A stretch of 64,000 nt of DNA from Solwaraspora sp. WMMD406 (GTDB taxonomy: Bacteria > Actinomycetota > Actinomycetes > Mycobacteriales > Micromonosporaceae), in assembly GCF_029626025.1 (NCBI RefSeq), contig NZ_JARUBF010000001.1, positions 1,674,001 through 1,738,000 of the forward strand. The letters run 5' to 3'. The notes under the pieces were generated by a model. The model was not told the origin of the DNA. It was given only the letters and a program-made list of their open reading frames with translations, and made no database searches. Shown here in pieces: positions 4,373 to 21,206 of the stretch (positions are counted from its first letter, which is position 1; each line of letters opens with the position of its first letter). A program made the translations under genes and the position numbers.

Positions 4373-6121
4373 TCAGTTCGGGGCGTGCACTCCGGTTGCC
4401 GCGTAGTCCTTGATCGAGCCCCGAACGTACATGTCGCTGCTCTGGTTGCCGGTGAAGTACTGCTGGATGGAGCCGGGGAACGGCGAGGTCGAGGCGCTAC
4501 GTCCGTACACGTCGGTGTAGACGGTCGACGGCCCGGTGTTGCGGACCATGAACGCGCCCGGTCGGAACTCCCGCAGCGTGCCCTTGAACGGTGAGCGCGG
4601 ATCGTCCCAGGCGACCTGTTGTCCGGTCTGTTGGGTGACCCGGCGTGCCTCGTCGCAGTAGTCGCCACCCGCGAGGTCGGTGTAGCACAGGTCCACGATC
4701 CGGCCCATGTTGTTGGGCCTGGCCGGGTCGTAGTAGCGCGACGGGTTGACCACGTAGAACAGCGGCGCGAGGTGGAAGCTCAGTCCAGGTCCGCTCACCT
4801 GGACATCGGAGAACCAGAAGTCGTCCATGTCGGAGACGGTGAACGGCACCGGGTTGGGGTAGAGCGGGTCGTAGTGCGTGCGGCCCTCCCGGATGGCCTG
4901 GACGCAGCTGGTCTCGGCGATCAGCCGGCCCAATGAGCGGGTGTCCGACGGCGAGTCGGCCGGTACGGCGGGTGCGACGCTGATGAACGGTCGGCCGAAG
5001 CCGGGGCATTCGCTGGGGCTGAAGCCGCCGGGGCGGCCGAGCGGGATCATCGCGTTGTACCGGGCCTCGGTGACCGGCCCGCCGTTACTGCCCACACAAC
5101 GCTGGTTCAACAGCAACTCGTGGACGTTGTTGGTGAACGCGTCCGGCGAGTGGGTGCCCTGGTGGAACTTGAGCAGCACGTCACAGACCGCGATGACGGT
5201 GCCCTGTGGCGGGAAGAAGCTGGTGCCGTTGTCGCCCTCGATGACGTTGCTGTTGTTCACCACGAGCACCTTGTGGCCGACGTGGTCCTCGTGCCGGTGG
5301 CTGTGGTCGGGCATGGTGTCCAGCATGACTTCGCTGGTGTATCCGAAGGCGGGCCAGCCGGCGGTGCTGTAGAGGTCCGAGGTACGTGGGTCGTCACCGT
5401 GTTCGTGGCCGAAGTAGCAGCCGCTCGGGTCCCGGGTGGGGTGCCAGGTCGGGTAGACCTTGCCGTCGGGTCCCCACGTCCAGTAACGGGCGTGGATCTC
5501 GACCGAGCATTCGCCGGCGCGGGGGAGGTATCCCTTCTCGTTGGCGGTGGCGATCAGTTCGTAGGCCCGGCTCTTCGGGGCGCTGGCTGGCGGCAGGCCC
5601 GTACCCCAGGTCGGGTCGCCGGGCGGGCTCGTGGGCGGGGCGGTGGTCGGCGGGGCGGTGGTCGGCGGGGCGGTCGTGACCGGTGGCGCGGTGGTGGGAT
5701 TGGTGGGCGAGCCCGTACAGGTGGTGCCGTTGAGGGCGAAACTGGTCGGCGCGGTGTTACTGCCGTTCCAGGCTCCGTTGAAGCCGAACGAGGTCGTGGC
5801 TCCCGTGGCGATGCTGCCGTTGTAGCTGGCGTTTCGGGCGGTGACCTGCCCGCCGCTCTGCGACACCGTGGCGTTCCAGGCCTGGGTGACCTGCTGGCCG
5901 TTGGCATAGCTCCAAGCCAGGGTCCACGAGTCGACCGGGTCGCCGAGATTGGTGATGGCCACGTTGGCGGTGAATCCGGTGTTCCATTGCGAGGCGACCG
6001 AGTAGGTGACCCGGCAACCGGTTGCGGCGTAGGCGGCCGTGACGGCTGCGGTGCCGGTGACGACCACGGCTGCCGCGATGGCGGCCGACCACAGCCGCGA
6101 GCGGTGACGAGGTAAGCGCAT
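4373..6121 (-). CDS. Secreted CBM2 protein with large His-rich uncharacterised domain
   Basis: A 582-residue secreted protein. Residues 1-32 are a signal peptide (basic start, alanine/valine core, AYAA). Residues about 34-133 are a family 2 cellulose/chitin-binding module (TGCRVTYSV start, paired Cys, spaced Trp residues such as WNTGF and WTLAWSY). A Pro/Thr linker with PPTTA repeats follows to about 165. The remaining 415 residues are unrecognised but rich in possible metal ligands: [23 protein letters not shown] and [11 protein letters not shown], with several Cys. ATG 6121 has GAAGGG upstream. The fusion suggests a wall-polysaccharide enzyme or metal-dependent oxidase acting on insoluble glycan, but no known catalytic family was identified. 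Confidence 0.85.
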
Positions 6122-6444
6122 GGCTGATCCCTTCGGGAAGTGTGGACGAATCGACAGAGTGTGCTGTCTCGGACGGTCGGCCACACGGGGCGTGATGGAG
6201 GGCTCCTGGTGGGGGAACACGAGGAGCGGCGAGCATCGTTGGGACGGATGCCCGAAGGCAGGCAACGAATCTCCCGGCCGATAGATTCATATCTATGTTA
6301 TGGGTTGTTTCCGGCGTGTCAATGTTGATCGATCAATCAGGCATGGTCCGATGGCGACGACAGTGAACTGGTCGGCGGGCCGGTCGCCCGTTGTCGCTGA
6401 GGACAGATCGCCGACGGCCGGGATGAACGCTGAGGTCTTCCCGG
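6122..6444. promoter_or_regulatory. Upstream region of CBM2 gene with two small palindromes
   Basis: This 320-base stretch carries no convincing gene. It contains ATAGAT-TCAT-ATCTAT (6281-6296), AT-rich in a GC-rich setting, and the perfect palindrome TTGATCGATCAA (6325-6336). Either could be an operator for the secreted CBM2 gene. The CebR-type box TGGGAGCGCTCCCA of cellulase genes is absent. Confidence 0.4.
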
Positions 6445-9488: not shown

Positions 9489-10070
9489 TCAGGTTCCGGA
9501 GGCTTCGTCGTACCGGCGGCGTAGATCGGCCATCTCCGATGGGGAAAGGGCCTCCCGCATCGCCGGCTCCGCGTACTTCGGCGGGAACATCTGCCGCAGC
9601 CGGTCGACGAACATGACCTCGGCGGTCGCCTCGACCACCTGGATGCCGGGCGGTTCGGCGGCGAAGTCCAAGATCACCGGTCCGGCCAGCTTGACCGCCA
9701 CGTCCCACGGGCGGCCCTGCTCGGCGACTCCACAGAGGTGGAAGCCGTAGACCGTCCGTACGTCGGCGAGCGCGGTCACGTCGGCCGGCTCGTAGCCGTA
9801 GACGTGTACTCCGCAGATCACCGCCGGCGGCACCTGCTCCCTGGCGGCCACCTGCACGAGATCGTGGCCGGAATGGTTGTGCTGCTCGGGGTCCGCCTGT
9901 TCGAGCGTGGTGCGCATCCGGGTCAGGATCTGCCCGTGCAGATCCGCCGGCTCCGCCTGCGAGCCGACCGATTTGGCCAGTACGGCCACCCCGGCCGTGG
10001 CCAGCAGGATCACCGCCACCCACACGAAGCGGTTGCGGTGTGACTTCGTCGAACTCTCCTGGGAATCCAT
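9489..10070 (-). CDS. Membrane-anchored hypothetical protein
   Basis: A 193-residue protein with one N-terminal membrane segment (FVWVAVILLATAGVAVLA, about residues 15-32) and a soluble, probably extracytoplasmic domain. Starts at ATG 10070 with GAGGTGAG upstream. The soluble part has two Cys (VICGVHVYG and FHLCGVAEQG) that could pair, and an acidic/aromatic C-terminus ending near MADLRRRYDEASGT. No family is recognised. It ends about 100 bases from the start of glnR on the same strand, so it could be transcribed ahead of it. Confidence 0.65.
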   Translation of the reverse strand: MDSQESSTKSHRNRFVWVAVILLATAGVAVLAKSVGSQAEPADLHGQILTRMRTTLEQADPEQHNHSGHDLVQVAAREQVPPAVICGVHVYGYEPADVTALADVRTVYGFHLCGVAEQGRPWDVAVKLAGPVILDFAAEPPGIQVVEATAEVMFVDRLRQMFPPKYAEPAMREALSPSEMADLRRRYDEASGT

Positions 10071-10974
10071 GGCTGCTTCTCACCTCGTCGCCGGTGCTGG
10101 AGCGTCGGCGGAGCGCGTGGGGTGCCCTCCGGCCGTCGTTGGGAGAAGGCCCGGCGATTCGGCATGCGAGAGCGTGCGCCGATCCGGCGCGCTGTCGGAA
10201 TCGCGTTGCTCCCGTGCTGGGCCGTGCTCAGCGCGGTTGCCCCCGTGCTGCGGCGATAAGTGCAATTTCAGCACGCGTCGACCCGTCCGGCAACATCGAC
10301 GTGTCTTCACCTGCTTCGCTCCCTGAATCTACCGGCGGCAGGTCGGTCCGTCCGTGGGGGCGGACGTCCGTGGCGTGGGTGCGACAAGCGGGGTTGCCGA
10401 CGGTCGGCGGCATGAGTCCCGGCATGGCTGACTGCGCCCGTACCGCGTCCGTCGCCGCTGCGATCGTCGGGGTAGTGGGCGCTCCCCCCCGGCGGTCGCC
10501 TCCGCGTGGGTGCCTCTGCCCCGGGCGACCGAGACCCATCGGCAAGTACTCTCCTTTCAGGTCAGAAGCTAGGTTACTTTCCTGATTCACTATATTGACT
10601 CATTCCTACTTATTTTCCGAGTCCCGCAAAGTGGCCCGGATCGCCCAGGTTTCGTAGGTTCTCGTCCGGTCCAGACTTGCATTCTTGCTGGTCAATGGCG
10701 TGATATTGGGACTCTGGGGGGTGCGCCGCGATGACTCTTGCTTGCTACTGATGGTGTTGCTAACATTACGCAGATCTTGTATCTGGAGTGTTCGGAGAAA
10801 TCATCCTTGGCGTGGACGAGGTCACATTCGACTGGGTGAGGTGCATGTTTCGGTGCCCGATGCAACCCTGGGCTCCAGGCTCTCTGGTGAGGAATGCTGC
10901 AGATTTGATCTGGTCGTAATTCCGTCGATTGCTTTGTTGCGTCTTATGTGTCATCGACGTGCGGCGGATGACGT
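10071..10974. other. Long intergenic region upstream of SARP gene
   Basis: Some 900 bases lie between the divergent membrane protein and the SARP gene. Bases 10560-10974 are clearly lower in GC than their surroundings and contain no credible plus-strand gene, so the SARP gene may have a 300-400-base leader or a complex promoter. A weak minus-strand candidate gene (10228-10539) is listed separately. Small or antisense RNAs cannot be excluded. Confidence 0.5.
10228..10539 (-). CDS. Possible small hypothetical protein (low support)
   Basis: A 103-codon frame starting at ATG 10539, preceded by AAAGGAGAG at about 10 bases and by a TATAGT-like -10 sequence further up. The predicted product is Pro/Ala/Arg-rich and matches no family I know. 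Its third-position GC falls in the last third, so it may be only an open frame. It is listed because the ribosome-binding site is good. Confidence 0.25.
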   Translation of the reverse strand: MGLGRPGQRHPRGGDRRGGAPTTPTIAAATDAVRAQSAMPGLMPPTVGNPACRTHATDVRPHGRTDLPPVDSGSEAGEDTSMLPDGSTRAEIALIAAARGQPR

Positions 10975-11946
10975 ATGACCGCTGTCGACCTGCGCTATGG
11001 GGTACTCGGCCCGCTGCAGGTGCTCCGCCATTGGCGGCAGTGCGCACCGACCGCCCGACTGCAACGGATTCTGCTCAGCCTGCTGCTGCTCAACGGCAAC
11101 GAGACCCTGCCGGTGTCCCGACTCGTCGACGGCTTATGGGGTGAACGACCGCCGCGATCGGCCGTCGCCGCCCTGCAGATGTATGTGTCGGCGATCCGGC
11201 GGTTCCTAGAGCCCACCTGGACGGCCGCAGGCGATGCTCGGCAGCATCCTGTACTAGTGACCGAACCCAACGGGTACATGCTTCGGGTCACCGTCGGCCA
11301 GGTAGATCTTTTCCGGTTCCGGTCACTCGCCACCGCCGGACGGCAGCTGCTCTCCGAAGGCAATTGTGGGCAGGGGGCGGAAATGATCCGCCGATCGCTG
11401 GACGTCTGGCGCGGATCGGTCCTGTCCGATGTGGCCAGAACGGCAGCGATCGAGCGCTACGCCGTACGTTTGGAAGCCGAGCGGCTAGCCCTGATCCAGG
11501 AACTCATCGCTGCGGAGCTGTGCCAGGGCAAGCGCCTGGAACTGGTCGGTGAACTGACCGACCTGTGCGTCCAGCATCCTTTGCGCGAGGCGTTCCACCA
11601 GCAGTTGATGCTTGTCAACTATCTGTCCGGCAGCCGCGCCGAAGCGCTGGCCGTCTATCAGCGGGCCCGTCTCCGAATGGTCGACGAGGCCGGCATAGAG
11701 CCGGGGCCAGGAATGCGTGCTCTGCACCAGATCGTCTTGAACGGAGCGCCCGCCCCCCACCCGCACTACTCCGCGACCTGGTGCCCCGGCTGCGTGACCG
11801 CAGTAGCGGTGGAGCCGACCCGGTCCGCCGCCTGCGAATGCCGTACCGCCAGCTGCCGGGCCCGGCCACGGGCAGACCTGACCGGTGGCGGTCATCAGGT
11901 TGCGTCCGGCACCGCCCCGAGCCGCCAGTCCAGTACACGTCGGTAG
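10975..11946 (+). CDS. SARP-family pathway-specific activator
   Basis: A 323-residue Streptomyces antibiotic regulatory protein. Residues 1-100 form an OmpR-like winged helix (RLVDGLWGERPPRSAVAALQ and QMYVSAIRRFLEP), and about 105-250 the bacterial transcriptional activation domain (VDLFRFRSL, MIRRSLDVWRG, HPLREAFHQQLM, ALAVYQRAR). SARPs switch on secondary-metabolite clusters, so the facing operon is its likely target. The last 60 residues after LHQIVLNG are unlike the family and Arg/Cys/Ser-rich. They overlap the 3' end of the convergent flavin reductase gene by 52 bases, so the true family domain probably ends near residue 260. Start ATG 10975 has only a weak GGCGG upstream. Confidence 0.87.
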   Translation: MTAVDLRYGVLGPLQVLRHWRQCAPTARLQRILLSLLLLNGNETLPVSRLVDGLWGERPPRSAVAALQMYVSAIRRFLEPTWTAAGDARQHPVLVTEPNGYMLRVTVGQVDLFRFRSLATAGRQLLSEGNCGQGAEMIRRSLDVWRGSVLSDVARTAAIERYAVRLEAERLALIQELIAAELCQGKRLELVGELTDLCVQHPLREAFHQQLMLVNYLSGSRAEALAVYQRARLRMVDEAGIEPGPGMRALHQIVLNGAPAPHPHYSATWCPGCVTAVAVEPTRSAACECRTASCRARPRADLTGGGHQVASGTAPSRQSSTRR

Positions 11947-12401
11947 TACACCAAGGGCTCACCGGAGACCACCCGACCATCCGTCACCTCTCCGATGACG
12001 ATCGCGTGGTCGCCGTGTTCGAAGACGCGGGATCGCCGGCACCGCAGATACACCGGCACATCCCGCAGACGTGGCACCCGGTCGTCCCAACACCAGTCCA
12101 AGCCAGCGAACTTGTCGTCACCCCGCCCGGCGAACGTCTGCGCGGTCGACCGATCCGCTACCCCGAGCAGATGGACACCGAAACATCCCTGCCGGGTCAC
12201 TGCCGGATAGGACCGGGACTGGCGGGCCACCGAGACCAGCACCGACGGAGGCCGAAGACTGTACGAGCAGATCGACGAAACGAGCAGGCCACACGGCGTA
12301 CCGTCAGGCCGACTGCTGGTGACCACCGCGACCCCGGACACCAGGCGGGTCATCGCCTCGGTGAAGATGGAAGCCACGCCAGCGGACTGCTGAACAGTCA
12401 C
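11895..12401 (-). CDS. Flavin reductase-like FMN-binding protein
   Basis: A 168-residue flavin reductase domain protein (HpaC/split-barrel type) that supplies or uses reduced FMN/FAD, often for a two-component monooxygenase. Seen: SGVAVVTSSRPDGTPCGL near the start, the flavin-contacting VSSICSYSLRPPSVLVSV, then FGVHLL, FEHGDHAIVIGEV and the C-terminal PLVYYRR. The GTG at 12401 is chosen: GAGGA lies 7 bases upstream and it begins 10 bases after the stop of the TPR gene, so the two are coupled. It is the last gene of the minus-strand series facing the SARP gene. No partner monooxygenase is in the locus, so it may act on the peptide product itself or serve an enzyme elsewhere. Confidence 0.85.
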   Translation of the reverse strand: MTVQQSAGVASIFTEAMTRLVSGVAVVTSSRPDGTPCGLLVSSICSYSLRPPSVLVSVARQSRSYPAVTRQGCFGVHLLGVADRSTAQTFAGRGDDKFAGLDWCWDDRVPRLRDVPVYLRCRRSRVFEHGDHAIVIGEVTDGRVVSGEPLVYYRRVLDWRLGAVPDAT

Positions 12402-12411
12402 GGTGACGTCC

Positions 12412-14577
12412 TCACACCCCGACCCGCGCGGCCAAGGCGGCCTCGCAGCGGTCCAACTCGGCCGCCGCGTCCTCATCGTCGACGACTGTCAGAATCGCCC
12501 GGAAATCGGCTGCGGCGGCGGCCCACCGCCCCGCGCTCTGGTGCACCACCGCCCGGTTGTACCGGAACTCCACGCCGTCAGCGATCTCGATCGCGCGGTC
12601 GAAGTCGTCCAGCGCACCGGCTAGATCACCGGCCTCGTAGCGCAGCCCACCCCGGATCGCCCACGGCTCAGCGAGATCGCCGCCCGCCGCCAGAGCCGCG
12701 TCGACCGCCTGCCGCGCGGCCGTCGGATCACCGCGCTCGGCCAGCACCCTTGCCCGAAGACTCAACAGGTACGGGTGGCCCGCAGCCAGCGCCAGTCCGG
12801 CGCCAATGTCCTCCCACGCGCCGTCGACATCGCCGAGATCGCAGCGGATCGCGGCCCGATTGGACAGGGCGTCGACATGCTCGGGATCTAGTTCGAGCAC
12901 CCGGTCGAAGTCAGCCAGCGCACCCTCGACGTCGCCCAGCTCGAGGCGTACGTCGCCACGGTTGTAGTGAACCTCGGGAGACGGCGGGAACAGCAGCAGC
13001 GCCTGTTCGTAGTCGGCCAGCGCCGCCTCGTTGCGGCCCAGTCGCCGCAGGACGTTGCCCCGGTTGAAGTAGTGGTCGGCGAAGTTGGGGTCAAGCTCGA
13101 TCACCCAACTGTGGTCGGCCAGCGCCTCCTCGAGCCGGCCCATCATCCCGTACACCTGGGCCCGGTTGTAGCGCAGCCCGGTTCGGTGCAGCAACTGCTC
13201 ATCCGGCGCCAAATCCCGGTCCAACCAGGCCATACCCTCGTTCAGCAGACGCAGTGCCTCCTCCGGACGGCCGTCTCGCGTCTCGACGAGAGCGAGCCCG
13301 TTGCGCTGGAACACCGACTGGAAGGCGCGTTCCTTCGGATCGGGTAGCAGCGACGCGATGGCGATGGCCTGGTTGAGCCAGCGCCGCGCCCGCCCGGAGT
13401 CACGCCGGCCGTCGCCGTAGTGACGGGCGTACAGCATCGCCGTCCCGTACGCGGCATGCATGTGGACGGCCGGGTCGATGGAGAGGGCCCGGGCCTCGTC
13501 GTACCACTGCTCGGCCTCCTCCGCGCGACCCGCTGCGGACAGCGACGTTGTCACATCCCCAGTGATCTCCCACCAAAGGTCGGGATCGGTGTCGCGGTCG
13601 ACCATCGCGCGGGCACGCTCGCCGAGCTCCACCGCCGCGTGGTAGAGGCCGCGGGTCTTGCAGTGCAGCTGGGCATTCCGCAGCAGAGCGGCTACCTCGT
13701 CGGTCGGGCGCGCGGCGCACTCGGCGTGGAACGGCACCGCACCGAGCAGCAGGGACGGCTCGCCACAGGCGAGCAACTGCCGCCGGCGTTCGTCGTGCAG
13801 CCCGACCCGGTCGGCGTCGGCGACGTGCCGGTAGGCGGCGTGCTGTCGCGGATCGTCGCCGAGGCACTCGGCCGCCACGTACGCTCTCGCCAGCTCGACG
13901 ATCGCGGCGGAGTCCAGCCCGGTCAACAGGGTCTGATCGGCAAACCCGCCCGGCGGGATCTGCTTGTCGGCCGCAGGCTCGCCGGCGGCCGGCTCGGCCA
14001 CCAACCGGCGGGCGCACCGGGACAGTGTCTGTGGCAACGAGACGCTATCCGGTCCGGCCGGCTCGACCAGCGGTTCGACTCCGGTGCTCACGACGACGGT
14101 CAGCTGTTCCGGCGCCAGCCGTCGCAGCAGAACCGCGACGAACTCTTCGTCAGTGGCGTCGGCCTCGGCGATGTCGTCGATCAGTAGGGTCCGTGGGCCG
14201 TCGGCCACCGCCGTCAGGTAGTCCCGGAGGATGTCAACCAGGCCGTGCGCGATCCGCAGGGTGTGCAGTCGGGCCTGGTAGCGAGTGCGGGCCTCGGAGG
14301 TGCTGCGATGGTCCAAGGTGGACCGCATCGGCGGCACCTCGCCACTGAACTCGGGCGCCGCAGTGAGGATCTCTATGTGGTGGCGGGGTCCCAGCTCCGG
14401 GCGGCGAACCAGTGTATCCGGCAGGATCGCCCGCAATATGGCACCGGCGGCCGTGTAGGGACCTCTCCTGCGCCGGTGCGCGCTGACCCTGGCCAGGATC
14501 GGTGGCAGCGGGAGCCCGGCCAGGATCCGGTCACGGTCCGGGCGGTTGGCCCCGCTGATCCAGTAGTGGCTGTCCAT
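12412..14577 (-). CDS. TPR-repeat protein with degenerate NTPase-like N-terminus
   Basis: A 721-residue protein. About residues 20-250 resemble an AAA/STAND-type ATPase: a Walker B-like strand RTLLIDDIAEAD and a later VVVSTGVEPL strand, but no Walker A GKS/GKT is visible, so ATP hydrolysis is doubtful. Residues about 330-715 hold eight or more tetratricopeptide repeats (for example ALADYEQALLLFPPSPEVHYNRG and AALADFRAIL). Starts at ATG 14577, 13 bases after the stop of the M50-like membrane protease gene, and is followed by the flavin reductase gene. In this operon it may be a scaffold for the peptide or its enzymes. That role is inference; the TPR call is secure. Confidence 0.82.
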   Translation of the reverse strand: MDSHYWISGANRPDRDRILAGLPLPPILARVSAHRRRRGPYTAAGAILRAILPDTLVRRPELGPRHHIEILTAAPEFSGEVPPMRSTLDHRSTSEARTRYQARLHTLRIAHGLVDILRDYLTAVADGPRTLLIDDIAEADATDEEFVAVLLRRLAPEQLTVVVSTGVEPLVEPAGPDSVSLPQTLSRCARRLVAEPAAGEPAADKQIPPGGFADQTLLTGLDSAAIVELARAYVAAECLGDDPRQHAAYRHVADADRVGLHDERRRQLLACGEPSLLLGAVPFHAECAARPTDEVAALLRNAQLHCKTRGLYHAAVELGERARAMVDRDTDPDLWWEITGDVTTSLSAAGRAEEAEQWYDEARALSIDPAVHMHAAYGTAMLYARHYGDGRRDSGRARRWLNQAIAIASLLPDPKERAFQSVFQRNGLALVETRDGRPEEALRLLNEGMAWLDRDLAPDEQLLHRTGLRYNRAQVYGMMGRLEEALADHSWVIELDPNFADHYFNRGNVLRRLGRNEAALADYEQALLLFPPSPEVHYNRGDVRLELGDVEGALADFDRVLELDPEHVDALSNRAAIRCDLGDVDGAWEDIGAGLALAAGHPYLLSLRARVLAERGDPTAARQAVDAALAAGGDLAEPWAIRGGLRYEAGDLAGALDDFDRAIEIADGVEFRYNRAVVHQSAGRWAAAAADFRAILTVVDDEDAAAELDRCEAALAARVGV

Positions 14578-14590
14578 GACGGTAGCTCCT

Positions 14591-15805
14591 TCAGGCGATG
14601 ATGTGCTGGAACTGCTGGGCCCTGCGCCGCCGACGCTCTCGCACGGCCAGCCACCCGGTCACCAGGATCTGACCGAGGTTGAGAACGAGGAACACCAGCG
14701 AGTCGGCGAGCTCCCCACTGGTCGAGTCGCCGCCGAGCCGACTGATCGCACTGGCGAACATCAGGTAGACCGCCGGCAGGACCCCGACGAGGAAGACCGC
14801 CATCGAGAACGTGTAGCCCGCGACGATCAGCCAGGAGTACCAGCTGGCGACCCGCCGGTCGACCGGGTGCCACTGCTCCTCGTCGACCAGCCGGTCCCGT
14901 CGGCCGACAGCCCGGAGGGCACGGTTTCGCAGCAGCCGCTTGGCGGTGGTGTGCAGGTCGACGCAGCCGAGCAGGGTCGACATCAGCACGTACAGGTCGG
15001 TGCGGAGGTAGAAGAAGAACTGCCAGGCGATCCGGAGCACGGTCGCGAAGGCCAACGCCAGACAGAGTCGGCCCACGGTGGACAAGCCGCCGTCCGCGAC
15101 TCGGGTCAGGTCGGCGATCAGCGTGAGCACTGACAGCGCCAGGACATCGAGCAGCATCCCGGCCAGGATCGGCAGGTAGCGCCGACGGCGTGGCACGGTG
15201 ACCAGGCCGTCCAGGCTGGTCTCCAGGACCACGTAGTAGAGCCGACGTCCAACGCTGATCCGGGACCGGATGCCGAGCCGCCGCGCGGCGAGCCAGTGGA
15301 ACGCCTCGTGGAGCAGGATCAGCGGCACCGCTCCTGCGGCGAGGGTCAGCTCGATCACGGTGAGGTACTGGGTGAAGAACAGGTTGCTGTAGTGCGGCAC
15401 CAGATCAGGCGATCTGACCATGGCGATCAGCGATGCGGCGATCACCACCGCGTACCCGATCATCGCGGGGATCGAAAAGACCGCCGCGCCGAGCCGTTGC
15501 CCCCGGATCGGTGCCTGCTCGCCATGCGGCTGGCTGCTGTCGGCGATGAAGTCGAGTTCGGCCAGGGCACCCAGGACGTGCTCGATGTCGGCGCTTTCGC
15601 CGTACTCGCGCTGATACCACAGGTCGACCTGGCGTGGGGTCTCGCCGGCGGCGAGCCGGCGGACCACTTTCGCCCCGTCCGGCGGGAAGATGCCGTACGA
15701 GTCGATGTCGCGGCGGCCGATAGTGACCTCGTCGCCGTCGGTCAGATAGACAAGAGGATGCAGGGGCACCCTGCTGTCCTGGTCGAATCCGACTACCGTC
15801 TCCAC
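14591..15805 (-). CDS. PqqD-like recognition domain fused to M50-type membrane metalloprotease
   Basis: About 404 residues from GTG 15805, which follows GAAGGGAG at 7 bases; ATG 15862 would add 19 residues but has no good site. Residues about 17-90 look like a PqqD/RiPP recognition element (VYLTDGDEVTIGRRD, then helices ending in VLGALAELDFI). Then come about six membrane segments. The zinc motif HEAFH (residues 166-170) sits in a membrane helix, with a second conserved Asp in AGMLLDVLAL, as in site-2 proteases and YydH-like peptide zinc metalloproteases. Such proteins process or export short ribosomal peptides. A 34-residue peptide gene lies 155 bases upstream on the same strand, which supports this role. 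Confidence 0.82.
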   Translation of the reverse strand: METVVGFDQDSRVPLHPLVYLTDGDEVTIGRRDIDSYGIFPPDGAKVVRRLAAGETPRQVDLWYQREYGESADIEHVLGALAELDFIADSSQPHGEQAPIRGQRLGAAVFSIPAMIGYAVVIAASLIAMVRSPDLVPHYSNLFFTQYLTVIELTLAAGAVPLILLHEAFHWLAARRLGIRSRISVGRRLYYVVLETSLDGLVTVPRRRRYLPILAGMLLDVLALSVLTLIADLTRVADGGLSTVGRLCLALAFATVLRIAWQFFFYLRTDLYVLMSTLLGCVDLHTTAKRLLRNRALRAVGRRDRLVDEEQWHPVDRRVASWYSWLIVAGYTFSMAVFLVGVLPAVYLMFASAISRLGGDSTSGELADSLVFLVLNLGQILVTGWLAVRERRRRRAQQFQHIIA

Positions 15806-15960
15806 CGCCCAGCTCCCTTCGCCAACCCGATACGCCGGCCACGACCACCGGCTGGCCCGCATGTCTACGAGCGGGGAGCTCCCGTACCGGCCGGCACGAT
15901 GGAGAATGGGGTGCGCCGGGCGTGGGCGCCCACTCCGCGCCCACGCCCGGCGCCGTACCG

Positions 15961-16065
15961 TCAGAGCTTGCTGGGGTACGTGGTGCAGGCTGCGGTGGTC
16001 AGCCGGACCGGACCCGCCTTGCGGATCTTGATCTTCTTGAGCGACTTCTTCTCCATCTTCTCCAT
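15961..16065 (-). CDS. 34-residue Lys-rich peptide, candidate RiPP precursor
   Basis: A very short gene read from ATG 16065 to TGA 15961, with a strong GGGAGGGGG at about 8 bases. The first 16 residues contain seven Lys and one Arg (leader-like). They run into KAGPVRLTTAAC (residues 16-27) and a Thr/Tyr/Pro/Ser C-terminus ending in Lys-Leu. The single Cys (27), four Thr, one Tyr and one Ser offer modification sites. It lies between an MFS exporter gene and a protease with a PqqD-like domain, the arrangement expected for a ribosomally made, modified peptide. No canonical modifying enzyme (LanB/C, radical SAM, YcaO, P450) is present in the window. Function is inferred from context. Confidence 0.75.
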   Translation of the reverse strand: MEKMEKKSLKKIKIRKAGPVRLTTAACTTYPSKL

Positions 16066-16197
16066 GTGGAACACCCCCTCCCGATCATTACGTGGTAGGT
16101 CCACCCTGGAGCAGCGCGCCAAAGCCCGGCCATAGAAGCGCCAACGAGGTGTGATTCGTCGACCGAGCCAGTGCTGTCCCGAATCGAACTGTCCGAC

Positions 16198-17361
16198 CTA
16201 CGGTTCGCCGCGCCGGATGGCGTACAGGGCCAGTCCCACGAGCGGGATCCCGATCAGGGCCCAGATCCCGAATCCCAGCGCCGCCGGATGATCCTCGCTG
16301 AGGATGCCCAGCCCCGGGCGGGCGACCGCGATGGCGACGCCACCGACGCTGGCGACCAGGCCGAGCATGGCCGCCCGGGTTCCCGCCGGGGAGACCTCGT
16401 TGGTCAGCACCTCCAGCACCGTCGTACCCAGGACGTAGCCGAAGGCCATCACCGGCAACAGCACGAACGGTCCGAGCGCGGGCAGCTGGCTGGTGGCTGC
16501 CGCCGACGCCAGGATCAACAGGAACGCGGTGGCCAGGGCGGCGCGGCGGTGCCGTCGACCGAGGTGTCCGGCGGTGAGACCGCCGAGCACCGAGGCGGCG
16601 GCGAACGCGGCGTACATCCACCCGGTTGCCCGGGCGCTCAGCTGCAGGTCCAGCGCCAGTGGCTGGAACAGGATGCGGACGCTCCAGCCGAACACCAGCA
16701 ACAGGACGCCGATCCAGACGGCCCGCCGTACCGCCGGGTGGGTCAACGCCGCCCGCAGGTCGGCGGCGATGGCGGCCAACCGTGCCGGTGCCGGCCTGGC
16801 GTGGATCTCCGGCAGGGTCAACACCAGGCCGAGCGCCACCGCCGCCAGGGCGGCGGTGACGGCGAACGGGGCCCGGGGGTCGGCCTCGTAGAGGTATCCG
16901 GCGGTGAGCAGGGAGACGAACACCGAAACGTGCCCGGCGGCCCGGACCAGACCGAACGCCTTGCCCGGATCGACCGGCAGCGGATCCTGGGCGCACAGCT
17001 CGTACAGGTACGGCGCGCTCGCCCCGGAGGCGAGCGCCCACAGCACCCCCCACAGCACCCAGGCGGTGAACAGTGTCGACACCGTCTCGATCTGGGTGAT
17101 CACCGTGAAGGTCAGCACCGCCATCGCGGCCAGCGTCAGATAGGTACGCCGTCGACCGACCCGGTCGGCGACGACGCCGACCGGGAACTCGCAGACCACG
17201 GTCACCAGGCGGAAGACGGCGTCGGCCAGCACCGCGGTGGTCAGCGAGAAGCCCAGATCGAGCAGGTAGATCAGCCAGATCGGGAACCAGAACTGGACGT
17301 CGAGCAGGAACTGGACGATCAGGAAGGTACGGATCGGTCGGCTGCGGAGCGCGGTCCTCAT
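16198..17361 (-). CDS. MFS transporter
   Basis: A 387-residue major facilitator superfamily protein with about 12 membrane helices. The signature loop between helices 2 and 3 is VADRVGRRRTYLTLAA, and the matching second-half loop is GHLGRRHRRAALATAF. Start ATG 17361 lies 20 bases after the stop of the preceding membrane-protein gene, so they are likely co-transcribed. The next gene downstream is the 34-residue peptide. An export role for a mature peptide or metabolite fits, but the substrate cannot be read from sequence. Confidence 0.9.
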   Translation of the reverse strand: MRTALRSRPIRTFLIVQFLLDVQFWFPIWLIYLLDLGFSLTTAVLADAVFRLVTVVCEFPVGVVADRVGRRRTYLTLAAMAVLTFTVITQIETVSTLFTAWVLWGVLWALASGASAPYLYELCAQDPLPVDPGKAFGLVRAAGHVSVFVSLLTAGYLYEADPRAPFAVTAALAAVALGLVLTLPEIHARPAPARLAAIAADLRAALTHPAVRRAVWIGVLLLVFGWSVRILFQPLALDLQLSARATGWMYAAFAAASVLGGLTAGHLGRRHRRAALATAFLLILASAAATSQLPALGPFVLLPVMAFGYVLGTTVLEVLTNEVSPAGTRAAMLGLVASVGGVAIAVARPGLGILSEDHPAALGFGIWALIGIPLVGLALYAIRRGEP

Positions 17362-17381
17362 CCGCGTTCAGCTCGCGCCGG

Positions 17382-18950
17382 TCACGGGCTGTTGTCCCGT
17401 CGGAAGAACAGGTAGAGGACCACGAGCAGCACCGACAAGGCTCCCGAGGCGATCAGGATCGCGTCCGCAGGTTGGGCGGCGACCCAGCCGACCATCGTGG
17501 ACCGGCCGAGGTCGTACACGGCCATGCCGGGGTCGGCGGCGACGGCCCGCCCGAATTCGGTGACCGCGAGGGCGGTGCCGAGGATCGACGTCACCGCGAT
17601 GCCGAGCAGGATGAGGTCGGTGAACATCGCCGATCGCGCGGTACGCCGGGCGGCCATCTCGCCCAGCCGACGGTCACACAGCTCGATCTTGAACCGGACC
17701 GGCTGCTCCAGCAGCTGTTCGCAGTCCCAGAAGTCCAGGATCGAGTCCATCTCGGCCCGTACCGACCGTTTGAGGTACTTGGCCAGGTCGCGCTGCTCCA
17801 TGATAATCAGCTCGGCGCGCTGGCTCAGCATGGCGAGCCGCCCTTTGAGCTGTTCGAAATCCCAGCGGGAGGTGGCGGCCGCGGAGTCGGCGAGGATTCT
17901 CGACAGCCGGGCGTCGATCCGGTCCAGCACCCCGTAGAAGACCTGCGCGTGCCGCAGCGCGTCCCACTGGTCCCGGAACGGGTCACCTGGCAGCATCCGG
18001 CCGCCGGTCCGGGCGCGGTCCATGAACAGATAGTTGAGCCAGCGTACGAGGTGGTCGCAGTCCCCGTTGAGCAGCCGATCGGCCGGCGCGGGGTCGTCGG
18101 CGGACACCACGTCCTTGATCCAGTGCCGCACCATCTGGTCCGCGACCGGGGATTCGGGATCCACGATCAAGCTCCGGGTGACCCAGAGCGCTTCGCCGAA
18201 CTCGGCGCGTATCGGGTCGTCCGCCGGGGCCGCCGGCAGGATGAACCGCCCGGCCCGGTCGGCCCGGCGCAGCGTGCCCAGCACCGGATCGAGATAGCGG
18301 GAGACGATCTCGCGGGCGGCCCGTTCACCCATCGAGACGGCTTCGACCTGCATCGCGTCGAGCCGGTCGGTCACCTCGTCCGGCTGTTCGGCGAGCCACC
18401 GGCCGACGTCGGTGAGGATCTCCAACAGAACCAGGCCGTGGTCGTAGAGCCGGAAGCTGATCTCGATGACGCCGTCGCGGATCGCCTGAGCGGCGGCGCT
18501 GGTCGCCTTGCCGAACTCGTCGGGCAGGTGGTGCGGGGTGAGGGCTCCGGTCAGCAGATGCACCGGGCGTTCGACCGCGTGGTCGCTGATCGTCCGGTAG
18601 AGGTTGAGTGAGCTGGTCGGATGTACGTGCTCCAGTCGGACGGCCGGCGGCGGCGCGGGCTTCGCGGGCGTTGATGCGGGTGCTGCGGGTGCTGCGGGTG
18701 CGGGTTTCGCGGGCGCGGGCGCGGGTTTCGCGGGCGCGGGCGCGGGTTTCGCGGGTGCTGGTGCCGCTGGCGTGTGTTCCGCTGGCGCGGACGTCGCCGG
18801 CGGGGCGGGCGCGAGTTCGGTCAGCAGAGCGTCGACCGACCGCTGCTGGTCGGCCCAGAACCGCGCGTACCCGAACGGATCACGCAGCGACGCCCCCGGT
18901 ACGCCGTAGTAGTCGACCACCACCGGTGCGAGAACACGCAGTTGGGTCAC
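17382..18950 (-). CDS. Membrane protein with Ala-Pro-Lys repeat linker, unknown function
   Basis: A 522-residue protein. A short N-terminal region (1-45) is followed by a low-complexity Ala/Pro/Lys linker (about 50-105) built from APAPAKP units. A helical, charged cytoplasmic-type domain runs to about residue 435. Two membrane helices at the C-terminus follow (LILLGIAVTSILGTALAV and ILIASGALSVLLVVLYLFF) and end in RRDN. ATG 18950 overlaps the stop of the substrate-binding gene by 4 bases (ATGA), so the two are translationally coupled. No family is recognised. Association with a solute-binding domain protein suggests membrane sensing or scaffolding. Confidence 0.7.
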   Translation of the reverse strand: MTQLRVLAPVVVDYYGVPGASLRDPFGYARFWADQQRSVDALLTELAPAPPATSAPAEHTPAAPAPAKPAPAPAKPAPAPAKPAPAAPAAPASTPAKPAPPPAVRLEHVHPTSSLNLYRTISDHAVERPVHLLTGALTPHHLPDEFGKATSAAAQAIRDGVIEISFRLYDHGLVLLEILTDVGRWLAEQPDEVTDRLDAMQVEAVSMGERAAREIVSRYLDPVLGTLRRADRAGRFILPAAPADDPIRAEFGEALWVTRSLIVDPESPVADQMVRHWIKDVVSADDPAPADRLLNGDCDHLVRWLNYLFMDRARTGGRMLPGDPFRDQWDALRHAQVFYGVLDRIDARLSRILADSAAATSRWDFEQLKGRLAMLSQRAELIIMEQRDLAKYLKRSVRAEMDSILDFWDCEQLLEQPVRFKIELCDRRLGEMAARRTARSAMFTDLILLGIAVTSILGTALAVTEFGRAVAADPGMAVYDLGRSTMVGWVAAQPADAILIASGALSVLLVVLYLFFRRDNSP

Positions 18951-20071
18951 TGGTCCGCCCCGTCCAGGTTGATGAATCGGGCGTCGACGTGGAACACCCG
19001 CCCCTGGGCCGGCCCGTTGACGATCTTGACCGGAACCAGGATCGGCCGACCAAGGCTGGCGGTCTGTCCGTTCGGTTCACCGGCCCCGGCGCTCGGCGCG
19101 GCGGAGGGACCGACGAACACCTCCGGCCAGTCGAGCACCTGGGCCCGGGTGCCGCGCGGGGCGACCAGCGCGAGCCGGCCGTCCGGGTCGAGCAACTCGA
19201 CCAGGCCGCTGCCGTCGGCCGGTTCCAACGTCACCCGGTCCGGCGTCTGCTGATCAAGGCCGGCGACCAGGTCGGCATACTCTTCGCCTTGGCGCATCTC
19301 GCCCAGCACCAGGTTGAACCGCCGCAGCACCGTGGCGGCCTCAGCGGTGTCCGGCATCATCAGGTGCAGTCCTTGCACCGAACGGACCACCGGTCCGCCA
19401 TCGCGCAGGTGGGTGAAGTCGGCCGCGTCGCCGGCGAAGGACGGGTCGGTGAGCACCGCGTGCCCGGAGAGCAGTCCTTCGGCGAGCAGGTCGATCCGGC
19501 CGTCCGCCAGAGCCTGAAATCCTTCCAGCGTCGACTCGAATCGGACCAGTTCCGGCACTGCCGCGTCCAGCTCGGCCCAGTAGTCGTATCCGGTGATGCC
19601 CCCGACCCGCAGCGCCGCCAGGTCGTCCGGGCCGTCCACCTGTGGCGTACCGGCCCGACTGTCGTAGAACAACACGTACTCGAAGTCGATCAGCGGATCG
19701 GAGAGCAGGAACGCGTCGCGCCGGGACGAGCTGGCGACCAGCGGAAACACCGCGTGCGCGGCTCCGGCGGCAACCTGTTCCTCGGCGAGCGACCAGGACG
19801 TGTAGGTGATTTCGGGGGAGTAGCCTGAGCGGGTCAACGCCGCGACCACCAGCTCCGTGATCGGCCCACCGCGCGGTAGGTCAGGCCCGACGAACGGTGC
19901 CCAGGCACCGCTCGTGACGATGACCGGACGCGCCGGTGCGGTCGGCGAGGGCCGCAGCCCGATGATCACCACGACGGCGGCCAGGGCGACCACGACGACG
20001 AGCACGATCACCGGCAACTGTGCCCGTAGCGGCCGCAACAGCTTCGATGCCAGGACCGGGTATCTCGTCAC
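18947..20071 (-). CDS. Membrane-anchored family 3 solute-binding domain protein
   Basis: A 374-residue protein with one N-terminal membrane anchor (PVIVLVVVVALAAVVVIIGL, about 20-39) and an extracytoplasmic domain like family 3 amino-acid/polar-solute-binding proteins. Seen: VTSGAWAPFVGPDLPRGG, the ITYTSW segment, AAGAAHAVFPLVASSSRRDAF and the hinge segment DDLAALRVGGITGYDYW. It lacks a lipobox and has no ABC permease or ATPase gene beside it, so it is more likely a sensor or receptor subunit than a transporter. It begins the minus-strand series and is coupled by ATGA overlap to the next membrane-protein gene. Confidence 0.78.
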   Translation of the reverse strand: MTRYPVLASKLLRPLRAQLPVIVLVVVVALAAVVVIIGLRPSPTAPARPVIVTSGAWAPFVGPDLPRGGPITELVVAALTRSGYSPEITYTSWSLAEEQVAAGAAHAVFPLVASSSRRDAFLLSDPLIDFEYVLFYDSRAGTPQVDGPDDLAALRVGGITGYDYWAELDAAVPELVRFESTLEGFQALADGRIDLLAEGLLSGHAVLTDPSFAGDAADFTHLRDGGPVVRSVQGLHLMMPDTAEAATVLRRFNLVLGEMRQGEEYADLVAGLDQQTPDRVTLEPADGSGLVELLDPDGRLALVAPRGTRAQVLDWPEVFVGPSAAPSAGAGEPNGQTASLGRPILVPVKIVNGPAQGRVFHVDARFINLDGADQ

Positions 20072-20100
20072 GGCGCGTCAGCCTACCCAAGCAGGGCAAG

Positions 20101-20140
20101 GCAGACCATCCGCTATATTCGCTTATATTGATATATTCTG
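20101..20140. promoter_or_regulatory. AT-rich divergent promoter region
   Basis: A small AT-rich island between the divergent solute-binding and DUF4034-like genes. It contains TATAT-TG-ATATA (20124-20135) and repeated ATATTC/ATATTG units. Such islands in high-GC actinomycetes usually hold -10 elements and operators. An 8-base match, TATATTGA, recurs in the AT-rich region before the SARP gene at about 10591. Confidence 0.45.
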
Positions 20141-20162
20141 GCTTTCGGCTTGGTGATCGGCG

Positions 20163-21206
20163 GTGGCCGCGCTCGTCGACCGCCAGCCGGCCGTCACCCG
20201 CACCGGGCTGATCTGGCCCGCCAGCTCGATGCCGGGCGGCCGGGCATTGGCGCAACACCGGGTCGACGCCGACCCGACCGACGGGCTCGCCGCCGCCCTG
20301 CTCGGCGCCTGCCTGATCAAACACGCCTGGGAGGTTCGCACCTCGGCCCGAGCGCAGCACGTCAGCGCCGACCAGTTCCGGTCCTTCCACGCCATCCTGC
20401 GGACCGCCGAACAACTGCTCATCGACGCCGCCACGTACCAGCCGGCGGACTGCGCCATCCGGGTCTGCCGGCTGACCACCGTCCGGGGCCTGCAACTCGG
20501 CCAGTCCGAAGCCCGCCGCCGCTACGACCGGCTCGCCGAAACCGACCCGCACCACCTGCCCGGCCAACGGCAACTGCTGCAGCAACTGTGTCCCAAGTGG
20601 AGCGGCAGCTTCGAGCAGATGCACGCCTTCGCCCGCGAATCAGCCGCCGCCGCCCCGGACGGCGCGCTCAACGGCCGCCTCGTCGCCGAAGCCCACCTCG
20701 AACACGTGCTGGAACTCACCGGCGACGAACGGCGGCGATACCGCAAGGACCAGCGGGTACGGGAGGAACTCCACGAAGCGGCGGCCCGCTCGGTGAACCA
20801 CCCGGCCAGCACCCGCGCGTACGGGTGGGTCGAGGCGCACAACGCGTTCGCCGCCACGTGCAGTTTCCTCGGCGACCACGCCGCGGCCGCCCCACACTTC
20901 GCCGCCGTCGGCCACCTGGTCAGCGCCGACGCGTGGGGTTACGTCGACGACCCGATCGCCGTGTTCCGGCAGTTCCGCGACAAGGGATGTCCGCGAAGGG
21001 CGGTGCCCGATGATTCGGCAACTGGACGTCGACGGGGTTCCGGCCCTGCTCGCGGCGACCTCCGGGCCGACCCACGCCGGCCTGATGTTCCGGGTCGGCC
21101 AAGCCGACGAAACCCTCGCCCGCCGTGGCCTGACCCACCTGCTGGAGCATCTGGTCCTGTATCCGCTGGGCGCGGCCGACTACCACTACAACGGCACCAC
21201 CGGTAG
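20163..21206 (+). CDS. DUF4034-like helical protein, probable 3' frameshift
   Basis: Read as given, 347 residues from GTG 20163. Residues 1-280 look like a single helical domain resembling DUF4034 proteins (AWEVRTSARAQHVSADQF, LPGQRQLLQQLCPKWSGS, AHLEHVLELTG). After FRDKG (about 274) the frame becomes Arg/Pro-rich and overlaps the next gene by 197 bases. If one base is restored in the GGG run near 20985, the frame ends as MSAKGGAR with a TGA at 21011-21013. That stop would overlap the ATG of the M16 gene as ATGA, a typical coupled arrangement. So the natural product is probably about 283 residues. The family call is tentative; pairing with the M16 gene is clear. Confidence 0.6.
   Translation: MAALVDRQPAVTRTGLIWPASSMPGGRALAQHRVDADPTDGLAAALLGACLIKHAWEVRTSARAQHVSADQFRSFHAILRTAEQLLIDAATYQPADCAIRVCRLTTVRGLQLGQSEARRRYDRLAETDPHHLPGQRQLLQQLCPKWSGSFEQMHAFARESAAAAPDGALNGRLVAEAHLEHVLELTGDERRRYRKDQRVREELHEAAARSVNHPASTRAYGWVEAHNAFAATCSFLGDHAAAAPHFAAVGHLVSADAWGYVDDPIAVFRQFRDKGCPRRAVPDDSATGRRRGSGPARGDLRADPRRPDVPGRPSRRNPRPPWPDPPAGASGPVSAGRGRLPLQRHHR

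Follow-up and report, generated by a model that had tools for sequence, protein, structure and literature searches.

The window, i.e. the whole 64-kb stretch of DNA that was analyzed, harbors a short open reading frame on the reverse strand at positions 15961..16065, whose product consists of 34 amino acids (MEKMEKKSLKKIKIRKAGPVRLTTAACTTYPSKL). Seven lysines are located among residues 1–16, a single cysteine is present, and a ribosome-binding site (GGGAGGGGG, 16074..16082, reverse strand) lies 8 nt from the ATG. The length of 34 residues, the lysines, the single cysteine and the ribosome-binding site had been given in a preliminary description of this DNA and were confirmed in the sequence. 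A TTG codon in the same frame could also serve as start and would yield 53 amino acids, but the ATG is preferred, since the relatives of the peptide begin at or near the KKI motif. Residues 10–23 form the leader motif KKIKIRKAGPVRLT (15997..16038, reverse strand), which is followed by the tail TAACTTYPSKL with a Cys-x2-Tyr arrangement (15964..15996, reverse strand). Pfam, NCBIfam and PADLOC assigned no family to the peptide. A 34-residue gene is easily missed by annotation tools, and this one is conserved in numerous soil bacteria, where it adjoins the same membrane protease.

The gene belongs to a cassette that is composed of the peptide, an M50 protease, a TPR protein and a SARP regulator, frequently joined by a flavin reductase. 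Directly after the stop codon of the peptide gene lies a perfect stem of 17 bp with a loop of 7 nt (15913..15953, reverse strand; z −3.9 in the window). The M50 membrane metalloprotease carries the motif HEAFH (14591..15862, reverse strand; relatives suggest a start near 15805), and weak profile matches place a PqqD/RRE-like domain at its N-terminus (about 15551–15805, reverse strand). The TPR protein (12412..14577, reverse strand) has a degenerate AAA_16/STAND-like N-terminus in which no P-loop was found. A flavin reductase-like protein (11895..12476, reverse strand; Flavin_Reduct 7.2e-35) has an uncertain start and, as listed, overlaps the TPR gene, and a SARP-type regulator with a BTAD domain (10975..11946, forward strand; BTAD 1.1e-36) is convergent with the cassette. 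Just upstream of the peptide an MFS transporter is encoded (16198..17361, reverse strand), which clusters with no gene of the other loci under comparison. In PADLOC, the protease, the TPR protein, the reductase and the MFS transporter all remained without a match.

Further genes surround the cassette. Positions 17382–20071 hold a gene of 522 amino acids with no Pfam match and one of 374 amino acids with a weak solute-binding match, both situated between the MFS gene and divergently oriented genes, one of which has an M16_C match. The block from about 10000 to 20180, comprising the cassette, the MFS gene and these two genes, is absent from the stretches fetched from four relatives of the genus, which adjoin their copies of the genes right of about 20.2 kb. 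A gene for 630 amino acids at 4373–6265 has a second copy with 86% identity in the same genome and further copies in relatives of the genus.

The peptide gene is single-copy in its own genome (search at E 10), and three further genomes of the family contain copies with 87–94% identity. A search of 354 family genomes with the peptide found 12 places at E ≤1e-3; at E 1 the hits extended to 97 genomes, which are an unsorted mixture of true copies and chance matches. The matches of an M50 profile in the same 354 genomes fell into two groups, namely 40 places with at least 419 bits, in 38 genomes, and others that reached at most 233 bits. All 40 places of this subfamily have the peptide upstream on the same strand according to a full-length peptide profile, and a profile of the leader only recovered it at 39/40, missing L110; the TPR gene follows downstream on the same strand at 40/40. 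The occurrence of the leader peptide upstream of all 40 proteases, together with the close copies in three family genomes, places the peptide gene beyond chance. At the lower-scoring M50 paralogues, no TPR gene was found in any of 12 fetched loci (14 kb each), and a weak cousin of the peptide occurred at one of them.

A wider scan of species genomes yielded 31 loci, at least three of which (L031, L032, L058) overlap with the 40 places. The peptide and the TPR gene are present in 30/30 loci with upstream sequence; in the remaining one, from a bin labelled Deltaproteobacteria, the sequence begins at the protease. The hosts belong to Micromonospora, Streptomyces, Kitasatospora, Streptosporangium, Sphaerimonospora, Sphaerisporangium, Actinokineospora, Actinosynnema, Amycolatopsis, Lentzea, Catellatospora and unnamed actinobacterial bins. 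A precursor beside a protease, as had been proposed in the preliminary description, is thus found at every protease of the subfamily in the family genomes and at every scan locus with upstream sequence. The distribution is patchy, since the six other genomes of the genus gave no M50 match at E 1e-5 and peptide matches at most at chance level (best 0.215). Among 396 genomes across the phylum, only two matched at E 1e-80, of which one was the genome of the window itself and the other a member of its family. A literature search that covered few subscription papers returned no paper on the leader motif or the cassette; the only paper matched by the leader strings dealt with a virus and was unrelated.

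Using the leader-only profile, which was trained on peptides that we had chosen, 84 distinct peptides were collected within 2 kb upstream of subfamily proteases; they are related and do not represent independent events. Their leader, with columns counted over 83 peptides because one was mis-cut, is of the type KKIxxRKxGxVRLT across loci. Both a cysteine and a tyrosine are located in the tail of 83/84 peptides, and the one tail with neither belongs to a degenerate additional copy in L048, where intact copies are present as well. The window peptide has the order Cys-x2-Tyr; in most others the tyrosine precedes the cysteine. Over all pairs, pN/pS was 0.44 for 14 leader codons versus 0.88 for the first eight tail codons, and with one peptide per locus (n = 52) it was 0.42 for the leader and 0.97 for the tail; the tail values are inflated, as unequal tails were compared ungapped, and the closest relatives differ too little for pN/pS to decide alone. 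An earlier pattern in which R, L and T were fixed, so that invariance and pN/pS were partly built in, gave nearly the same values as the leader-only profile. The comparison across actinomycetes that had been suggested in advance, for leader conservation and core variation, therefore reveals a conserved leader and a hardly constrained tail (0.44 vs 0.88). The same pattern recurs within arrays in five genomes, which contain about six to nine or more peptide copies each that are nearly constant up to about LTSAAQPLY and variable beyond. An encoded precursor with a conserved leader and a variable core, as is typical of RiPPs, is thereby present. In distance comparisons the leader tracked the catalytic part of the protease and the tail weakly tracked the RRE and the TPR protein; these pairs are non-independent and were given no weight.

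A hairpin after the peptide gene is a common property of the cassette. Directly downstream of the last peptide gene, a stretch of 90 nt had z < −2 in 44/55 loci (mean z −3.18), compared with 9/55 (mean z −0.71) for the 90 nt upstream of the leader, the 55 loci being of our own choice. L048 and L063 have no hairpin at this position. It may act as an attenuator or stabilizer and would then raise the ratio of peptide to enzyme mRNA, keeping the peptide message in excess.

The HExxH motif is present in 48/48 M50 homologues, and the window protein combines it with several hydrophobic segments, as expected of a multi-span membrane protease. Its Pfam Peptidase_M50 match is only 0.034 and below the family cut-off, and a profile of the protease found no match among solved structures. 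The first approximately 90 residues weakly resemble an RRE of the PqqD type. Among 17 core protease N-termini, the NCBIfam model lasso_PqqD_Strm matched seven (best 0.0018, weak) and Pfam PqqD four (best 0.0034, weak), and Polysacc_synt_2 also matched two (best 0.0071). The best match among profiles of solved structures (PDB) was the lasso protein TfuB1 (0.14), and the window's own N-terminal domain alone matched no Pfam or NCBIfam profile. Of the recognition-domain protease that the preliminary description had placed next to the peptide, the protease is present, and the PqqD-like domain is matched only weakly by profiles. Designed repeat proteins (Cake), which were the top matches of a first N-terminus profile, were an artefact and disappeared when core members alone were used.

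Among the TPR proteins, AAA_16 matched 14/16 N-termini at E 1 (best 3.8e-6), spanning the second half of the model in the window protein, and a P-loop pattern was absent from the first 200 amino acids in 49/49. The protein therefore reads as a STAND-type regulator minus its nucleotide site. A profile of its N-terminus had no match among solved structures; the repeats matched TPR structures. A flavin reductase is encoded near the TPR gene in 30/54 core loci, some of the shorter of which end before the position of the reductase, and a SARP-like gene, in a few cases a weak one, lies within 9 kb in 32/54; the 54 core loci are the 66 loci minus 11 paralogue loci and the plasmid locus. L034 has an Oxidored_FMN protein after the TPR gene, with a homologue in L033 and a relative in L077 (29.9% over 365 amino acids, 1.2e-22). 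Besides the protease, the TPR protein, the SARP and the reductase, no gene cluster was common to more than 8/52 entries compared.

Five common families of modifying enzymes are absent from the window. Radical_SAM, as expected for an epipeptide system, Asn_synthase, as expected for a lasso system, and Lant_dehydr_N, as expected for a pearlin system, have no match in the 64-kb window, and 27, four and eight matches, respectively, elsewhere in the genome; YcaO and p450 are likewise without a match inside the 64-kb window and occur elsewhere in the genome. A modifying enzyme may be of another kind or encoded elsewhere in the genome. In L069 a B12-radical SAM protein, TfuA and YcaO are encoded in line upstream, and L075 has the same clusters. 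Both loci also carry longer precursor-like genes of their own, with what we take to be a nitrile-hydratase-like leader, and the peptide may therefore be a mere neighbor of these enzymes.

Several loci deviate from the common arrangement. The peptide of L132 contains neither cysteine nor tyrosine and adjoins a 394-bit protease and an annotated TPR protein; this locus belongs to a linear plasmid of Streptomyces sp. NBC_01450, on which the cassette lies amid transposase genes. L077 has kept the TPR protein and a peptide with cysteine and tyrosine, and no M50 was found there. In L135 and L136 the main type of TPR protein is present, and neither peptide nor M50 was found; the TPR gene of L135 stands in a row with AAA_16-LuxR genes, and the same clusters recur in L136. 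A sister TPR family has places in 23/354 family genomes. In 8/9 fetched loci its gene directly follows another peptide of 27 residues, MKKMTIRRKGALRLLSGARRLWIEWCW or close, the ninth locus starting at a contig end, and no M50 was found in these nine. The peptide of this two-gene module (L137–L142, L144, L145) is near-invariant and ends in GARRLWIEWCW or close, and its gene overlaps the called TPR start in three loci. At the paralogue M50 loci (L120–L131), a ThiF-type cluster adjoins 8/12 (family checked in two), others adjoin LnmK/HMG-CoA synthase-type genes (checked in L130, with the same clusters in L131), and in several of these loci short Cys-bearing peptides of their own are encoded upstream.

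Positions 15961..16065 almost certainly encode a genuine precursor peptide of the cassette, and its product is probably a small released peptide. A spurious reading frame, or a conserved nucleotide element such as the hairpin region that is read as protein, is highly improbable. The closest copies are a few substitutions apart, which makes close comparisons undecisive, but across genera the leader is conserved as protein with silent change, and the copies have their own ribosome-binding sites and different tail lengths. Linkage and leader constraint rule out a chance reading frame. The two observations that would have spoken against a precursor, namely a lack of protein-level constraint and absence beside homologous proteases, were not made, as the leader is more constrained than the tail and the peptide accompanies 40/40 and 30/30 proteases.

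We somewhat favor the interpretation that the peptide is a RiPP-type precursor, which is bound by the protease via its leader and released, possibly after a change of its cysteine and tyrosine. Starting from the observed gene, linkage, leader/tail pattern, hairpin and protease motif, the leader KKIxxRKxGxVRLT would dock on the N-terminal PqqD/RRE-like domain of the M50 protease, which would cut near the end of the leader and release the Cys/Tyr tail at the membrane. The least certain steps are those before release, in which the side chains of cysteine and tyrosine might be altered while the TPR protein holds the peptide, and in which the flavin reductase, or in few loci the Oxidored_FMN-type protein, might supply reducing power. 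This interpretation is supported by the linkage at 40/40 and 30/30 loci, the leader/tail constraint, the Cys/Tyr tails, the arrays and the hairpin, as well as by the RRE-like signal, the flavin reductase in 30/54 loci and Oxidored_FMN in L034 and L077. It is weakened by the absence of five modifying-enzyme families from the window and of any other gene in more than 8/52 entries, by the weak RRE scores, which other Pfam families nearly reach in few members, and by the variants, i.e. L132 and the L048 copy without cysteine and tyrosine, L077, L135, L136 and the sister TPR proteins. These variants fit a signaling function as well.

A signal of the Rap-Phr/RRNPP kind is the main rival, and we regard it as possible though rather unlikely. 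The M50 protease would free a tail, perhaps unmodified, which after re-uptake would be bound by the TPR protein and alter an adjacent regulator of the SARP or LuxR type. The persistence of the TPR protein where other parts are missing is the strongest argument for this: the sister TPR proteins directly follow another short peptide in 8/9 loci in which no M50 was found, and AAA_16-LuxR genes stand in a row with the TPR gene of L135. The resemblance of the TPR protein to a regulator that lost its P-loop, the SARP-like genes in 32/54 core loci and the failure to find common modifying enzymes point in the same direction. However, it would be unusual for a signal to come in arrays in which one TPR gene is accompanied by six to nine or more varied tails, and the flavoenzymes have no role in such a scheme. 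Moreover, SARPs are common neighbors of biosynthetic clusters in general, and biosynthesis is the typical setting of an RRE-like domain. It is improbable that the M50 protease sets free an unmodified cationic antimicrobial or bacteriocin for which the TPR protein would confer immunity or act as a chaperone. The high positive charge of the peptide, the varied array tails and a hairpin suggestive of high peptide expression would suit this function, but most of the charge belongs to the conserved leader, short and polar tails are numerous, and no transporter gene occurs in more than 8/52 clustered entries (that cluster being an ABC ATPase by one member).

If the peptide is a RiPP-type precursor, we tentatively suggest, as a less probable extension, a new class of ribosomal peptides, in which a near-obligatory Cys-Tyr pair is joined or oxidized without a recognized modifying enzyme. 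The machinery would comprise the P-loop-less STAND-TPR protein with a flavin enzyme, and release would fall to the RRE-bearing membrane protease; a second peptide family (GARRLWIEWCW or close), without an adjacent M50, would be served by the same TPR family. The cassette adds a widespread actinobacterial precursor family without a Pfam or NCBIfam match, which has a short, readable leader and an RRE-like protease domain, and its Cys/Tyr signature is directly checkable by mass spectrometry. It would thereby reveal, in bacteria that produce antibiotics, either a new chemistry of peptides or a Phr-like route of signaling.

The cassette shares traits with several known systems. In Rap-Phr/RRNPP systems a short peptide gene adjoins a TPR protein near a regulator. 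The same holds for the cassette, where a TPR protein stands beside a short peptide gene with a regulator nearby; it differs in the degenerate STAND-like N-terminus of its TPR protein, in having no evident Sec signal, and in the RRE-like protease. In the FxSxx-COOH system, the TPR protein FxsT is linked to a short precursor, as is the TPR protein of the cassette, although FxsT is not among the matches listed for the latter in NCBIfam at E 0.1. The N-terminal domain of the protease finds its best, though weak, match in the B1-type RRE of lasso systems (lasso_PqqD_Strm, TfuB1), whereas the Asn_synthase-type cyclase of these systems is missing from the window. Epipeptides have a radical SAM epimerase, and the peptide aminoacyl-tRNA ligases of pearlins are LanB-like. 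Unlike epipeptides, the cassette has no radical SAM protein in the window and a different leader and tail; unlike pearlins, it has no Lant_dehydr_N match in the window, and its C-terminal tails vary freely. Passages of a review on RiPP proteases (PMC10885120) name M50 enzymes for both classes. As described there, the epipeptide precursor EpeX lies beside the intramembrane M50 protease EpeP, which is thought to cut and export it, and pearlin peptides are paired with the membrane-bound M50 enzymes TglG and TmoG (PMC10885120); the pairing of a short precursor with an M50 membrane protease is likewise found in the cassette.
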